The notes under the pieces were generated by a model that made no database searches, had not been told where the DNA came from, and saw only the letters and a list, made by a program, of their open reading frames with translations. The translations under genes and the position numbers were made by a program. Shown one piece after another: positions 58,780-64,000 of a stretch of DNA of 64,000 nucleotides (position 1 is the first letter of the stretch; each line of letters begins with the position of its first letter). This stretch comes from Theionarchaea archaeon (GTDB lineage: Archaea > Methanobacteriota_B > Thermococci > Methanofastidiosales > SZ-28-30), in NCBI GenBank assembly GCA_018992685.1, contig JACVGT010000018.1:248001-312000 (forward strand). The letters run 5' to 3'.

Positions 58780-59556
58780 CTACAGTTCTTTCTGCTGACA
58801 GCATTCAACAAGTGTTTCAGCTGCCTGCATAGGATTGTCTGTCCTGAATTCTGACGAAAAGAGTCGGAACAAAAGCTGTACATACCTTTCCATTTCTGTG
58901 AGTTGCTCTTGCTCAGATATATCCTGATTGAGCTGAGGGATCTGAAAATCTGTCTTTAAAGAATGGGAGACAATCCAGGAGGCTGCAACAAAAATGAAGG
59001 CGTGCTGGATGAGGAACCTGCTCTGGGAAGACAGTCTCTGTATGGTGAAAACGATGCTTAGATATCGCCATATGGATTGAGGATTGTCACTCTCCGTGGT
59101 GCGGTGCAGTATTTCATGGGTGAGGAGTTCCAGCACCTTCTGATCAGATTGGTGCCCAAGTGGAATGCTGAGTGGAGTGCTTCTGGGCCATGGACGAAAG
59201 AAGGACATCACAGGAAACACGTCCAGAATCCCATCATAGAAGATCCACAACTCTTCCATCAAGGAAATGATTCTCTTCTGGTTGGAATCCCACACTCGTT
59301 CAAGGTGTTGTTTGAATTCACGCAACTCTTCACTGAAGGCAGGCCACTCTGCAGAAAAAGAGTCCCGAAAAGAGGTTACTTCCCGTCGGATGGGAAGGGA
59401 AATGCTGGAGAGCACAGCATCCAGGGATGTGCTGGAGACGAAAAGGCTTTCTACCTCTCTTGACCACAGATGGGATTTCTCTGATGAGAGCTGGTTTCTG
59501 GCATATCCCAGAAAATTGAGTGGTTCTGATACGTGAAAGATCAGTCGTAGTGTCAT
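58780..59556 (-). CDS. HExxH-containing protein at end of RiPP cluster
   Basis: 258 residues from ATG 59556, which has GTGATGATACC before it; an upstream reading would overlap the methyltransferase by 59 nt and is disfavoured. VLELLTHEILHRTTE (~125-139) has an HExxH zinc motif in a helical context; the rest is mostly helical (RREVTSFRDSFSAEWPAFSEELREFKQHLERVW). No family is recognised. Being last in the radical SAM/PqqD/methyltransferase operon, it may be the peptidase that removes the leader peptide, or an unrelated metal protein. Moderate to low confidence in function. Confidence 0.55.
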   Translation of the reverse strand: MTLRLIFHVSEPLNFLGYARNQLSSEKSHLWSREVESLFVSSTSLDAVLSSISLPIRREVTSFRDSFSAEWPAFSEELREFKQHLERVWDSNQKRIISLMEELWIFYDGILDVFPVMSFFRPWPRSTPLSIPLGHQSDQKVLELLTHEILHRTTESDNPQSIWRYLSIVFTIQRLSSQSRFLIQHAFIFVAASWIVSHSLKTDFQIPQLNQDISEQEQLTEMERYVQLLFRLFSSEFRTDNPMQAAETLVECCQQKEL

Positions 59557-59611
59557 GGTATCATCACATTGGAGGTACGAACTGAACCCTCGTCTTTGTT
59601 GTTGGGCCAGT

Positions 59612-60406
59612 CTATCGTTTTCGAGCAATGGCCTGTAGATGGTTTCCAACTGGACCGAACCCTTCTTCATTCAGGGTGATCTCGTAGGTCAGGATCTTTC
59701 TCCTGAATTCTGCATCGGTTTCAAGTCTCTCTCCCAAGTCTTCAAAATACGCTGCCCCGAGCGTGAGAAACACAGGTTTTCCCACCACTTTTACGAGATC
59801 CGCACCTGCTCTGTCAAATTCCTCCTTGAAAACTCGTGGAGTAAAGGTATACGTGCGCGTACCCCTCTTATCCACTGCAACTCCTTTGTCCAGAATGGTT
59901 TCTCCTTCACCAAAGCCATGGAGAACAGATTGTCTCATGAAAAACATATATCTATTGTCTACCCCAATTTCAATGTAGGAACCGGGCCTGGCCACTCTCA
60001 CCAGCTCTTTTATTGCCTGGAAGTGATTTTCTGCACAGTAGGAGACAGGGTCACCCTCTGACAACACGAAGTCAAAGTGGTCTGAAGGGAAGTCCAGAGC
60101 CGTGATGTCCCCTTCTGTTACAAAGATGCGGTCAGTCAGTCCTTCCTTCTCGATTTTTTCAGAGGCTTCTGAAAGCATTTCCGGAGAAACGTCCACCAGG
60201 TACACAGTATATCCTTCCCTGGCAAGCTGTATACTCCATTTGCCCGTTCCTCCTCCTGCATCAAGAATAACACCCTGTTCGGGAAGATAGTCCGTGATGT
60301 ACTTCCAGGTAAGGGCATCATAGATCCCCCAGGATCCTCCAGAAAACATCTTGTCATATGACTCGGCCAGTCGACTGTAGGTTTCTCTTGCATTCTCTCC
60401 TTTCAT
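59612..60406 (-). CDS. SAM-dependent methyltransferase of RiPP cluster
   Basis: 264 residues. Motif I VILDAGGGTGKWSIQLA (~46-62), acidic motif II YLVDVSPEMLSEA (~70), motif III GDITALDFPSDHFDFVLSEGDPVSYC (~98-123) and KELVRVARPGSYIEIGVDN (~135) are typical of UbiE/Methyltransf_25 enzymes. It starts 4 nt after the PqqD-like gene with a GGAGTGAT SD, so it is coexpressed with the maturase. In this context the substrate may be the modified peptide, but a small molecule cannot be excluded. Confidence 0.85.
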   Translation of the reverse strand: MKGENARETYSRLAESYDKMFSGGSWGIYDALTWKYITDYLPEQGVILDAGGGTGKWSIQLAREGYTVYLVDVSPEMLSEASEKIEKEGLTDRIFVTEGDITALDFPSDHFDFVLSEGDPVSYCAENHFQAIKELVRVARPGSYIEIGVDNRYMFFMRQSVLHGFGEGETILDKGVAVDKRGTRTYTFTPRVFKEEFDRAGADLVKVVGKPVFLTLGAAYFEDLGERLETDAEFRRKILTYEITLNEEGFGPVGNHLQAIARKR

Positions 60407-60410
60407 GCCA

Positions 60411-60665
60411 TCACTCCAAGAGCTTTAACTCCCTGAATCTGGACAACGTTTTCTCGACGTCCTCCTCCACAGTACTTCTGTCACTCTCCTCATCTGTGAG
60501 CATGTCCAGAAGGTCTCCTTCTGTCATCCCTTGCTGACAGGCTTCCATGATGGCAAGAGCTGTCTCATTAAATCTGTAGATTTTACCTGTTCCCATGTGA
60601 ATGATGTATGTCTCATCAGGTTCCTGCCTGATCAACACCTGGGAACTAACCTTGGGCAGACTCAT
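60411..60665 (-). CDS. PqqD-like RiPP precursor recognition protein (RRE)
   Basis: 84 residues, the size of PqqD. Sequence SLPKVSSQVLIRQEPDETYIIHMGTGKIYRFNETALAIMEACQQGMTEGDLLDML ends in VEEDVEKTLSRFRELKLL; the I/V-Y-R-F-N-E-T-A-L-x-I-M-E pattern is diagnostic of PqqD. These wing-helix RRE proteins bind leader peptides and present them to the radical SAM enzyme. Start ATG 60665 lies 7 nt after GGAGG; the earlier ATGs at 60683 and 60671 are nearer or inside the SD. It overlaps the maturase by 20 nt, so the two are translationally coupled. Confidence 0.88.
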   Translation of the reverse strand: MSLPKVSSQVLIRQEPDETYIIHMGTGKIYRFNETALAIMEACQQGMTEGDLLDMLTDEESDRSTVEEDVEKTLSRFRELKLLE

Positions 60666-61956
60666 GGGCATTCCTCCTTTCATACATATACTCTAAATAG
60701 GGCGTCACAAGTTGCTTTATGTCAATACATGCCGGAGTAGAGAGATCCTCATTGACCAGCAGTGATTGATATCCGCAACCGCCTCCGCAGACCAGTGCCA
60801 GTTCACATTCCCTGCAGGTATCCATAGAGAAGATTGTCCTGTCTCTCCATTTCTGCATGTTCCCATTGAATGACAATTCCGGCGTATACACTCCAATACG
60901 ATGTTCTTTCCAGCCCAGCATGGCTCGACAGGGGTACACATCTCCAAACGGGTCGAATACGTACCGGTTGGTTACTGCAGCGCAATTCCAGAAGGATGGC
61001 CAAAACCGGGGGCGCTCAGTGTACAGAGACGCCAGTTTCACATAAGGTGACGCCTCGAAAAACTGGAGGTCTTCCTGCAGTGCCACATCCAAGACCTGCC
61101 TGTAAATCGAAAACAGCTTCTCAGAATTCTCAATATCCGGAATCTGATCACACAAGTGGATCATGGCAAAGTGGACGGTGGGGTCATCAATCCACCCCCT
61201 CTCTCTGTAAAAGAGGGCAAGCTCGTGTATCTGTGATAGAACCTCTGGATCGCTGTTGGTTCGAAGTAGTAATGTGATCCCCATATCCCTGGCTTTCTCT
61301 ATGTTCCTGACAATAATGTCGAAAGTCCCCTTTCCACTTCTTGAAATGCGTCGCCCATCATGAACAGATCGAGGGCCATCCAGCGTGATCTGAACAAATT
61401 CTATGTTCAATGACGAAATCTCGGGGAGAAAAGAATGTAACTCCACACCATTGGTGAAAAGTGTGAACTTATACCCCAGATCATCCCCTTTGCGTAATAT
61501 GTATTTTACAATATCAGCATTCTTCATCATCAGGGGCTCTCCCCCTGTCAGGGTCAGAGGTTTCTCCCGTGAACATTGTGCATTCAGCTCTTCCATGGCG
61601 GTAAATGCCTTGTCCACTGTGGATTCATCTATCACCGTGTTCATCATCTGAGGGCTCTTTACCCATACTTCATAGCAGTAGGGGCACCGTAGATTACAGT
61701 CATATGTTACCGCAATCGTGCTGTCTGCACACAGGGCTGTCTTCTTCATCAAGAAACTGCAAAAAGCCTGGGCTTTCTCTGCCTCCTCTTCCGGACGTAA
61801 ATTCGTAAAAAAGGGTTTCAACTCCTCAGTGACTGTACCTTCAAGTAATTGTTCTCCAGTTTTCTTATCCACAAAAAAGACTGCACCTGACAATCCATTG
61901 AGCAGTACGTACTTGTCCTTCACTGCAAATACCATGGTATACTGGCTCTTTCTGAT
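60646..61956 (-). CDS. Radical SAM/SPASM peptide maturase, ATC start
   Basis: About 436 residues. N-terminal RRE-like/leader segment (RKSQYTMVFAVKDKYVLLNGLSGAVFFVD), radical SAM motif AVTYDCNLRCPYCYE (CxxxCxxC) and a C-terminal SPASM region (FWNCAAV, VYPCRAML, CRECELALVCGGGCGYQ, CIDI) for auxiliary [4Fe-4S] clusters. This architecture modifies ribosomal peptides (thioether, C-C or epimerisation chemistry). ATG 61935 lacks an SD, while AAGGAGGTGA is 7 nt before ATC 61956, and the family begins MKxSxY-like there. Directly downstream of two short Cys-rich peptide genes. Family confidence is high; the reaction is inferred. Confidence 0.88.
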   Translation of the reverse strand: MRKSQYTMVFAVKDKYVLLNGLSGAVFFVDKKTGEQLLEGTVTEELKPFFTNLRPEEEAEKAQAFCSFLMKKTALCADSTIAVTYDCNLRCPYCYEVWVKSPQMMNTVIDESTVDKAFTAMEELNAQCSREKPLTLTGGEPLMMKNADIVKYILRKGDDLGYKFTLFTNGVELHSFLPEISSLNIEFVQITLDGPRSVHDGRRISRSGKGTFDIIVRNIEKARDMGITLLLRTNSDPEVLSQIHELALFYRERGWIDDPTVHFAMIHLCDQIPDIENSEKLFSIYRQVLDVALQEDLQFFEASPYVKLASLYTERPRFWPSFWNCAAVTNRYVFDPFGDVYPCRAMLGWKEHRIGVYTPELSFNGNMQKWRDRTIFSMDTCRECELALVCGGGCGYQSLLVNEDLSTPACIDIKQLVTPYLEYMYERRNAHESAQG

Positions 61957-62096
61957 GGACTCACCTCCTTTCTGTTCTGGCAGCCCGTCTTAAAAAGGTT
62001 TTCTCAATCCCTCAATTCCTGTCGCGTCCTCCATGACTGCGACTGCCACAGAGACTGCTTCCACCACGAGTCCACGTTTAATAGTCCAAAAATCTC

Positions 62097-62116
62097 TTCA
62101 AAAAAAGTAAAAAGAA
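62097..62116 (-). terminator. T-rich terminator after precursor peptide 1
   Basis: On the minus strand TTCTTTTTACTTTTTTTGAA follows the peptide 1 stop by about 40 nt, separating it from the maturase gene. Confidence 0.5.
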
Positions 62117-62153
62117 TAGGAAATGTTTGCGCCTTTGTAGTGCTGTATCACGC

Positions 62154-62231
62154 CTAATCTGCGATGAAAGCGCAGCACATGCACTGGTCGATCTCTACAG
62201 AAATCTCTTCAATCTTAGCGTTCGTGTACAT
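62154..62231 (-). CDS. RiPP precursor peptide 1 (25 residues, CxCC)
   Basis: Short peptide MYT-N-A-K-I-E-EIS-V-EIDQCMCCAFIAD. A TATA box (AAAGTTTATAAG, ~62264-62275) about 26 nt before the predicted start and SD AGGTGATATCC before ATG 62231 make a complete gene. The paralogue at 62538-62636 shares 16 or so residues across the leader-like N-terminus and the CMCCA core. It is 200 bp upstream of the radical SAM maturase on the same strand. Role inferred: substrate of the adjacent SPASM enzyme, with Cys as thioether or metal-binding sites. Confidence 0.8.
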   Translation of the reverse strand: MYTNAKIEEISVEIDQCMCCAFIAD

Positions 62232-62275
62232 GGATATCACCTGCTCTCCCTATTTTTTCTTTTCTTATAAACTTT
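62232..62275 (-). promoter_or_regulatory. Promoter and SD of peptide 1
   Basis: TATA AAAGTTTATAAG and SD AGGTGATATCC are arranged as at peptide 2, leaving a leader of roughly 12 nt; the SD is identical in both genes. Confidence 0.65.
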
Positions 62276-62473
62276 TCGGATAAGAATAGATAGGCTAAAG
62301 GACGCATAAGACACTTTGAATTTTCCAAGAGATATATAATCCAGGCCCAGAATAGCCTAAAAGGCAGTACAATATCCTGATAGCGTAACTGTCTGGCTTT
62401 GCCCCACTTGAACATCACGTCCGTTGACTTTCATCAGCTTGCCCTGACAGTACCGATCATTGAACTTGGAACC
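62276..62473. other. Spacer between peptide genes
   Basis: About 200 bp. A 25-codon minus-strand frame (start ATG 62432, end 62357) would encode KVNGRDVQVGQSQTVTLSG and a Cys, but it lacks an SD, TATA box and similarity to the two peptides; not called. Confidence 0.3.
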
Positions 62474-62520
62474 ACAAAAAAGAAAGAAGGAAAGAGAAAG
62501 AAAGAGAAAGAAAAAAAGTG
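62474..62520 (-). terminator. Long T/C-rich terminator after precursor peptide 2
   Basis: On the minus strand a run of about 45 nt is nearly all T and C, with runs of six or seven T, 18 nt after the peptide 2 stop. Confidence 0.6.
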
Positions 62521-62537
62521 AAGAAAATCGGAAAAGC

Positions 62538-62636
62538 TTATGCAACGACTCCGATGTTGTCTATGGGGGCAGCAGCGCAGCACATGCACTGGTCGATCTC
62601 CATAGAAATCTCTTTGATTTCAGCTTTTGTGTACAT
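62538..62636 (-). CDS. RiPP precursor peptide 2 (32 residues, CxCC)
   Basis: Short peptide MYT-K-A-E-I-K-EIS-M-EIDQCMCCA, then a tail AAPIDNIGVVA. Own TATA (GATTTATAAG, ~62668-62678), SD AGGTGATATCC identical to peptide 1 and ATG 62636. The conserved part is the N-terminal leader-like EIS-x-EID and the CMCCA core; the tails differ. The tail resembles a RiPP follower, and the E/I-S-x-x-ID-x-C layout is faintly like mycofactocin precursors, but that is only a resemblance. Likely substrate of the SPASM maturase. Confidence 0.8.
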   Translation of the reverse strand: MYTKAEIKEISMEIDQCMCCAAAPIDNIGVVA

Positions 62637-62680
62637 GGATATCACCTACTCCCTTTTCCCCCTTGAGACTTATAAATCTT
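62637..62680 (-). promoter_or_regulatory. Promoter and SD of peptide 2
   Basis: GATTTATAAG TATA box, about 12-nt leader and SD AGGTGATATCC, matching the peptide 1 promoter. Confidence 0.65.
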
Positions 62681-62843
62681 TCGCTTAAGTTTAACGAAGG
62701 CGAGTGGTGTAGCAGTAGATGGTAATATGAATACGGATATTTCATTTGAGGTTATACCACGCTGATTCCCAGACACATTCTCCTTTTCAATCTGGACAAG
62801 GCTTCTAGTGGCGTAAAAACTCTTGAAAGGGTTGCCAGAAAAG

Positions 62844-64000
62844 TTATTCTCCGATCTTCATGCCCTCTTTTATCAAGAGCATGGCTGCCAATACTGCTGC
62901 AACAAGGCACACTGACGTGATCTGGAAAGTCATCCTTATGTTGAATAACTCTGCAGCATACCCATAAATCAAAGGAGCCACGATGCTGGCCACCCCTCGC
63001 ACTGATCCCAGTGTCCCGAAATATGTGCCGCGCAGTTCTGCTGGAACGATATCCACAATCAAAGCGCTCATGACCGGGCGAAACATCCCATCACCAACTC
63101 CAATCAAGGCCCACAGGACTATCATCCAAATCAGTGTGGGAGAATACGCCATGGCCGTGTTGAAGACAATGATGAGCGTCAATCCTAGACCGATGAAAGC
63201 TTTTCTTTTCCCCAGCTTGTCTGAAATCCATCCTCCAAAAGGCTGGACGACGGCAAAGGTAATCCAGGAAACGGCAACGATGGGCCCCAGCAGTTCATTT
63301 CCCGCCCCAAACACCTGGGTCGCAAACAGGGGAACATACACAGGGTAGACACGCAGGGCAAACGTAAAGAAGAATGAGTAAACCATCAATCCTAGGGTGC
63401 TTTTCTGTAATGCCATGGTACGGGCGCTCTTTATGAATCTTTGAAATCTGGTTGCAGATGAGGCAGGCAGTGGTTTTTCCTCTTTTCGTTCAACAGTTTC
63501 CTTGAGGAAGAATGCAAGCACCAAAGAGGAGACAAAGAAGCACGCAGATGTAATGTAGAACAGCTCTCTGAACCCAAATCCCCACGATATGATCGCGCCT
63601 CCTCCAAAGAGAGCTGCAGAATACACAATGCTCTCTACTGAGGAATAGAACCCAAACAGGGTTGCTCGCCCCTTTTCAGGAGCAACATCTCCCAGCATAG
63701 CACTGAGAACAGGCTGAGAGCTTTCAGAAACAACCGTACGAGCAGAATGAATGACTGCCAGTCCCAGAGCATTACGAATGGCAAGATAAAACGGGGTCAG
63801 AAAACTCACCAGGAAAGACAGGCCTACAATGAGCTTTTTCCTTCCATATCGGTCTGACGTATGTCCCATGAAGGGGCGCAATACCAGCGAACCCAGGCTG
63901 GCCAGCGAGAAAATGATTCCCAAGTTTCGGAAGCTGATACCTTGCTCCACAAAATAGACTGCGAATATTGGATTCAAGAACCCTGCGCCAACCATGGAAA
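62844..64000 (-). CDS. MFS transporter (5' partial)
   Basis: 383 residues from ATG 63995, and the frame is open to the right edge: TM1 (MVGAGFLNPIFAVYFVEQG) lacks its first half. Twelve-helix pattern with the MFS loop motif FMGHTSDRYGRKKLIVG after TM2 and a second half with QPFGGWISDKLGKRKAFIGLG. It resembles tetracycline/multidrug H+ antiporters. Same strand as, and upstream of, the peptide genes, so it may export the modified peptide. The linkage is positional only. Confidence 0.88.
   Translation of the reverse strand, partial: SMVGAGFLNPIFAVYFVEQGISFRNLGIIFSLASLGSLVLRPFMGHTSDRYGRKKLIVGLSFLVSFLTPFYLAIRNALGLAVIHSARTVVSESSQPVLSAMLGDVAPEKGRATLFGFYSSVESIVYSAALFGGGAIISWGFGFRELFYITSACFFVSSLVLAFFLKETVERKEEKPLPASSATRFQRFIKSARTMALQKSTLGLMVYSFFFTFALRVYPVYVPLFATQVFGAGNELLGPIVAVSWITFAVVQPFGGWISDKLGKRKAFIGLGLTLIIVFNTAMAYSPTLIWMIVLWALIGVGDGMFRPVMSALIVDIVPAELRGTYFGTLGSVRGVASIVAPLIYGYAAELFNIRMTFQITSVCLVAAVLAAMLLIKEGMKIGE

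Follow-up and report, generated by a model that had tools for sequence, protein, structure and literature searches.

The 64,000-nucleotide (nt) stretch analysed here (the window) comes from a Theionarchaea archaeon, a member of an uncultured archaeal class, and lies in a 3.0-Mb assembly (contig JACVGT010000018.1, positions 248,001–312,000). At its end, positions 58780–64000 carry on the minus strand a compact set of genes that probably encodes a pathway for a ribosomally synthesized and post-translationally modified peptide (RiPP) with two precursors. In transcription order, the set comprises a major facilitator superfamily (MFS) transporter, two short peptides (A and B), a radical S-adenosylmethionine (SAM)/SPASM enzyme that we call the maturase, a PqqD-domain protein, a SAM methyltransferase and a protein with an HExxH motif, followed by uvrC. 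A sequence-only reading of this DNA had listed the same genes on the same strand, and all were found as described. The sister species Theionarchaea archaeon SZ_28-30 (genome G001, locus L038, contig JACVGW010000063) shares this gene order in full, both peptides included, with identities of 78% for the maturase, 81% for the PqqD protein, 87% for the methyltransferase, 63% for the HExxH protein and 86% for the MFS protein.

Peptide A (MYTKAEIKEISMEIDQCMCCAAAPIDNIGVVA, 32 amino acids, 62538..62636, minus strand) and peptide B (MYTNAKIEEISVEIDQCMCCAFIAD, 25 amino acids, 62154..62231, minus strand) are the proposed precursors. They share the pattern MYxxxxIxEISxEIDQCMCCA, that is, a duplicated N-terminal part followed by CMCCA, and differ in their tails after it. 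The sister-species versions are MYIKSEIEEISMEIDQCMCCAAAPIDNIGVVA and MYIRSEIEEISMEIDQCMCCAVIVD; all four peptides agree at 15 positions, among them the whole block EIDQCMCCA, and peptide A shows no difference between species from its first Cys onward. Both peptides are coding sequences under purifying selection. Between the two species, 8 synonymous and 3 nonsynonymous changes separate the copies of peptide A (nonsynonymous rate, dN, 0.040; synonymous rate, dS, 0.645; dN/dS 0.06), and 7.7 and 9.3 those of peptide B (dN 0.169, dS 1.123; dN/dS 0.15). Third codon positions hold 8/11 of the differences in A and 10/18 in B, or 18/29 when pooled (p = 0.0014, assuming independent sites), and most of the intergenic DNA around the peptides has diverged. 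Because the peptides are retained in the sister species with low dN/dS and mainly third-position changes amid such diverged surroundings, they are more than chance open reading frames, and the earlier description of two short paralogous genes of 32 and 25 codons stands. A homologous maturase lacking a conserved peptide, which that reading had named as contrary evidence, did not occur, as checked on one orthologue in two species.

Each peptide gene is preceded by signals of its own. An element resembling a B recognition element (BRE) and TATA box, CGAAAGATTTATAAG, lies before peptide A (62669..62683, minus strand), identical in both species and at equal distance from the start, and its counterpart before peptide B, CGAAAAGTTTATAAG (62264..62278, minus strand), is likewise kept at equal distance in the sister species. 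Boxes of this or similar sequence are also kept between species before the maturase, the MFS gene and a gene further upstream, termed S3 below. By itself, the BRE/TATA pattern is not above chance within the window, so the promoter argument rests on its conservation before genes. In both peptides the box is followed by AGGTGATATCC-ATG, a conserved Shine-Dalgarno element, and T-rich stretches follow both genes. These signals suggest that the peptide genes are each transcribed separately. Own promoter-like elements, together with the capacity of CxCC motifs to bind metals, would also suit unmodified small proteins, such as peptides with a metal-binding or redox role, whose position next to the maturase is incidental. 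We regard this as improbable, since the peptides combine a duplicated N-terminal part and CMCCA with different tails and adjoin the maturase and the PqqD gene in both species, and since paralogous maturases also have Cys-rich short peptides beside them.

The maturase gene (60646..61956, minus strand) belongs to the radical SAM/SPASM enzymes, scoring 57.9 bits on the Pfam Radical_SAM model (cut-off 29.5) and 52.9 bits on the SPASM model TIGR04085 (cut-off 27). Its CX3CX2C motif (C80, C84 and C87) and its SPASM cysteines (C318, C336, C374, C377, C383, C387 and C403) are all invariant in both species. The first ATG lies at 61935, and translation probably begins at a rare AUC start codon (61956–61954), conserved in both species, 21 bases or 7 codons earlier. 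This start is favoured because the Shine-Dalgarno site (AAAGGAGGTGAGTCC) fits it, because the added residues IRKSQYT resemble the N termini of paralogues (RKSSYT, LRRSRYV) and because the added stretch, identical in both species, contains no in-frame ATG, GTG or TTG. In a tree, the maturase and its sister-species orthologue form a separate, long-branched lineage.

An AlphaFold2 model of the maturase, built from an alignment of 34 archaeal relatives, has a predicted local distance difference test score (pLDDT) of 87.5 and a predicted template modelling score of 0.88. The closest structure in the PDB is CteB, the SCIFF maturase, which forms thioethers, both by profile (E 4.5e-41) and by fold (E 1.4e-20); SkfB was also among the profile and fold matches, and SuiB and ChlB among the fold matches. 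In CteB, the RiPP recognition element (RRE) lies in the region with which the N-terminal strands and helices of the maturase align. Because the root mean square deviation is near 9 at a template modelling score of 0.69–0.70, the domains of the model and of CteB are probably placed differently.

The comparison extends to the predicted ligands of auxiliary cluster I. The spacing from the first to the second conserved SPASM cysteine is C-x17-C with no extra Cys in both CteB and the maturase, whereas anSME has extra cysteines, one of which is its fourth ligand of auxiliary cluster I. The three-cysteine pattern of the maturase, with ligands assigned by alignment alone, is thus CteB-like and not anSME-like. 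The open auxiliary-cluster coordination of CteB is thought to bind a substrate Cys (PMC8326336), and we therefore favour the view that the maturase probably forms Cys thioethers. The sequence-only reading had proposed thioethers or a metal site at CMCC; the three-cysteine pattern makes the thioethers, a predicted product, likelier. Other chemistry on genuine RiPP precursors, such as a C–C or C–O cross-link, epimerization or oxidation, with the cysteines serving, for example, as the metal ligands of a small metallophore, has in its favour that known SPASM families catalyse several reactions, that SuiB and ChlB are among the fold matches and that CMCC could bind metal. We judge it unlikely, though less so than unmodified peptides, given that CteB ranks first by both profile and fold and that the cysteine pattern of auxiliary cluster I is CteB-like.

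The discrete PqqD-domain protein (60411..60683, minus strand) overlaps the end of the maturase gene and scores 43.7 bits on PF05402 (Pfam cut-off 23.4), which confirms the earlier call of a PqqD-like RRE protein. The methyltransferase (59612..60406, minus strand; PF13649, 74.6 bits) is a generic class I SAM enzyme; methyltransferases more distantly related to it are repeatedly found next to paralogous maturases. The MFS protein (62844..64000, minus strand; start 86 bases past the window end; PF07690, 162 bits) resembles drug-efflux transporters below curated cut-offs and is a candidate exporter of the product. The HExxH protein (58780..59670, minus strand; its true start may be later) has H185, E186 and H189, encoded at ~59104–59118, in both species. 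It matches no Pfam or NCBIfam family, has homologues only in the genomes of these two species, of 115 searched in the phylum, and gave only chance matches in a PDB sequence search; its AlphaFold model from two sequences is unusable (pLDDT 43.3).

Just upstream of the window end (C1:312369-315314, approximately), two SPASM enzymes, the second of which is S3, flank a protein of 293 residues, an arrangement conserved in the sister species. The 293-residue protein (L009:9397-10278), in which S86 and K132, candidates for the Ser-Lys dyad of an S16 domain, are invariant, has no Pfam match and only chance matches in a PDB sequence search. It aligns weakly (hhalign E 3.5e-7) with a Thermococcaceae protein read by eye as S16-like, and we propose this Lon/S16-like protein as a candidate RiPP leader peptidase. 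Of the 11 S3-type genes in the two Theionarchaea genomes (>200 bits), 9 have a focal-family maturase within ~5 kb, evidence that S3 enzymes and these maturases act together. The two upstream SPASM enzymes and the Lon-like protein likely belong to the same pathway. One S3-type enzyme (L011:10302-12152, genome G000, contig C10) carries an N-terminal PqqD fusion and follows three consecutive maturases.

Comparison with described systems places the locus near several of them. Ranthipeptides (SCIFF, CteA/CteB; freyrasin, PapA/PapB) likewise pair a SPASM maturase, with CteB the closest structure, with a Cys-containing ribosomal precursor, but their precursors have six Cys in ~45 residues (SCIFF) or CX3D repeats (PapA). 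Here, by contrast, precursors of only 25 and 32 residues carry one CMCC block, with three Cys each and no CX3D or CX3E, and are encoded alongside a discrete PqqD protein. The maturase stayed far below the cut-offs of both the SCIFF model (TIGR03974, 94.3 of 425 bits) and the PapB/freyrasin model (NF047865, 105.7 of 340 bits; Cys-X3-Asp/Glu repeats absent from both peptides). The two top-scoring NCBIfam maturase models were CefB (NF038107, 145.6 bits, cut-off 600) and TIGR04463 (124.4 bits, cut-off 525), but the Cys-every-fifth precursor of those families is not present here, and CefB was also rejected. Sactipeptides of the SkfB and AlbA type share the Cys thioether as the outcome proposed here, and SkfB is among the matches. 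Their cores span 26–44 residues and are mostly hairpins (PMC8326336), whereas only 9 and 16 residues are available here counted from the first Cys. A search with PADLOC for a defence system gave generic matches only (viperin-type radical SAM; the methyltransferase domain of mad2), so a role in defence finds no support.

Pyrroloquinoline quinone (PQQ) and mycofactocin pathways resemble the locus in combining a discrete PqqD-domain protein, a SPASM enzyme and a short precursor; they differ in that the maturase is of neither the PqqE nor the MftC type, the precursor features are others and no cofactor genes were recognized. The PQQ assignment itself fell away, with 20.6 of 46 bits on the PqqD model TIGR03859 and PqqE not among the matches listed for the maturase. 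A peptide that serves as the scaffold of a small cofactor and is mostly discarded, as in these pathways, would account for the very short precursors, the discrete PqqD protein, the several SPASM enzymes and the HExxH protein. The upstream SPASM enzymes also score on PqqE (83–100 of 381 bits) and mycofactocin models, all below cut-off. Of the explanations considered we give this one the least credence, and very little of it, because there are two precursors with unlike tails, the maturase is nearer to CteB than to PqqE or MftC and the MFS gene is exporter-like.

Several lines of evidence together make a two-precursor radical SAM/SPASM RiPP pathway, with a maturase probably forming Cys thioethers, the explanation we favour with reasonable confidence: the precursors are conserved in full synteny in a second species and are under selection, the motifs of the maturase are intact and its nearest structure is CteB, the discrete PqqD/RRE protein exceeds its cut-off, promoter-like and Shine-Dalgarno elements ahead of the genes are conserved, the cysteines aligned to auxiliary cluster I follow the CteB pattern, paralogous maturases have Cys-rich peptides beside them, and most S3-type genes lie near maturases of the family. 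The RiPP assignment of the sequence-only reading is upheld on these grounds, as is its statement that the set matches no named class, as the maturase fell short of every NCBIfam maturase cut-off. Five points weigh on the other side. The absence of any NCBIfam RiPP-maturase model at cut-off, the CefB score being the best, is one of them. The locus was found in just two species, so that the tail residues and the linkage to the upstream genes are weakly constrained. Peptide B has five residues past its last Cys, which limits the thioethers it could form toward the C terminus. For the HExxH protein, peptidase activity is only a candidate role. Finally, the locus is known here only from its genes, from which transcripts, product and activity are predicted.

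Under the RiPP pathway, we propose the following sequence of events. Each peptide would be transcribed separately, and its N-terminal half, MYxxxxIxEISxEIDQ, would be the leader, to which the PqqD protein, the RRE-like N terminus of the maturase or both would bind. In the maturase, the open iron of auxiliary cluster I would hold a cysteine of the CMCC core, and the 5′-deoxyadenosyl radical would meanwhile take a hydrogen from a nearby residue. At least one S–C thioether would result, and every such bond would lower the mass by 2 Da. The methyltransferase would methylate the peptide, one or both candidate peptidases (HExxH and upstream Lon-like) would remove the leader near EIDQ/CMCC, and the MFS protein would export the product. 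The two upstream SPASM enzymes would probably act in the same pathway.

The distribution of the peptides is narrow. A profile of the CMCC peptide found the two species alone among the 115 genomes of the phylum, with a single further match (E 0.1) that we attribute to chance. A scan of genome contigs with two rare motifs returned only the sister species and is therefore a weak search beyond it, and viral contigs yielded no relative by DNA pattern or peptide alignment. Maturases of the focal family are, by comparison, unusually dense in the two Theionarchaea genomes (>190 bits; 13 in G000 and 29 in G001), which also encode many PqqD domains, and relatives occur in Thermococcaceae. The other SPASM loci in both genomes and in Thermococcaceae share maturases 25–36% identical in the alignment, the SPASM Cys pattern and, in several cases, Cys-rich short peptides alongside; they differ in their leaders (several NKKLW) and cores and in maturases that are often in tandem, and no CMCC peptide or HExxH homologue was found at them.

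Several open reading frames at these related loci look like precursors of other kinds. Cys-rich peptides with NKKLW or NKKxW leaders lie beside SPASM maturases at L012:9931-10089, L044:7270-7422, L041:10109-10273, L041:16243-16410, L043:6233-6355 and L040:7637-7777, the L012 and L044 peptides being orthologous (73%). An open reading frame of tandem CALEVQPTF units, which looks like a multi-core precursor, directly precedes a SPASM maturase pair in both species (L013:9883-10110, G000 contig C2; L046:10549-10725, G001 contig C128), with a higher copy number in G000 than in G001. Another possible multi-core precursor, with three FCATLP repeats, stands just before a SPASM maturase (L047:956-1195, G001 contig C132). 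In the Thermococcaceae genome G099, a 60-residue Cys/Gly-rich open reading frame (L093:13202-13384), a possible RiPP precursor, neighbours three radical SAM relatives of the focal maturase; this family has complete genomes.

Archaeal genome mining has reported many radical SAM-type RiPP clusters, including ranthipeptide and sactipeptide types, with identified products scarce (PMC12144867), and, within the literature collection searched, no paper joined Theionarchaea with RiPP biosynthetic gene clusters. The kind of pathway, a SPASM RiPP, is already known; neither the peptide family nor this combination of enzymes corresponded to a described family in the searched libraries. It is possible, if doubtful, that the locus represents a separate RiPP class, in which two ultra-short CMCC precursors would be converted into a pair of small thioether peptides, perhaps with a metal-binding or signalling role, by as many as three SPASM enzymes, the methyltransferase and two candidate peptidases of unusual kind (the orphan HExxH protein and the Lon-like protein). 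The two proposed leader peptidases were matched here to no RiPP family. The locus offers a compact set that can be tested in vitro, with substrates of 25 and 32 residues, one CteB-like maturase and one discrete RRE protein, from a genus whose two genomes encode 13 and 29 such maturases and which, in this respect, is apparently undescribed.

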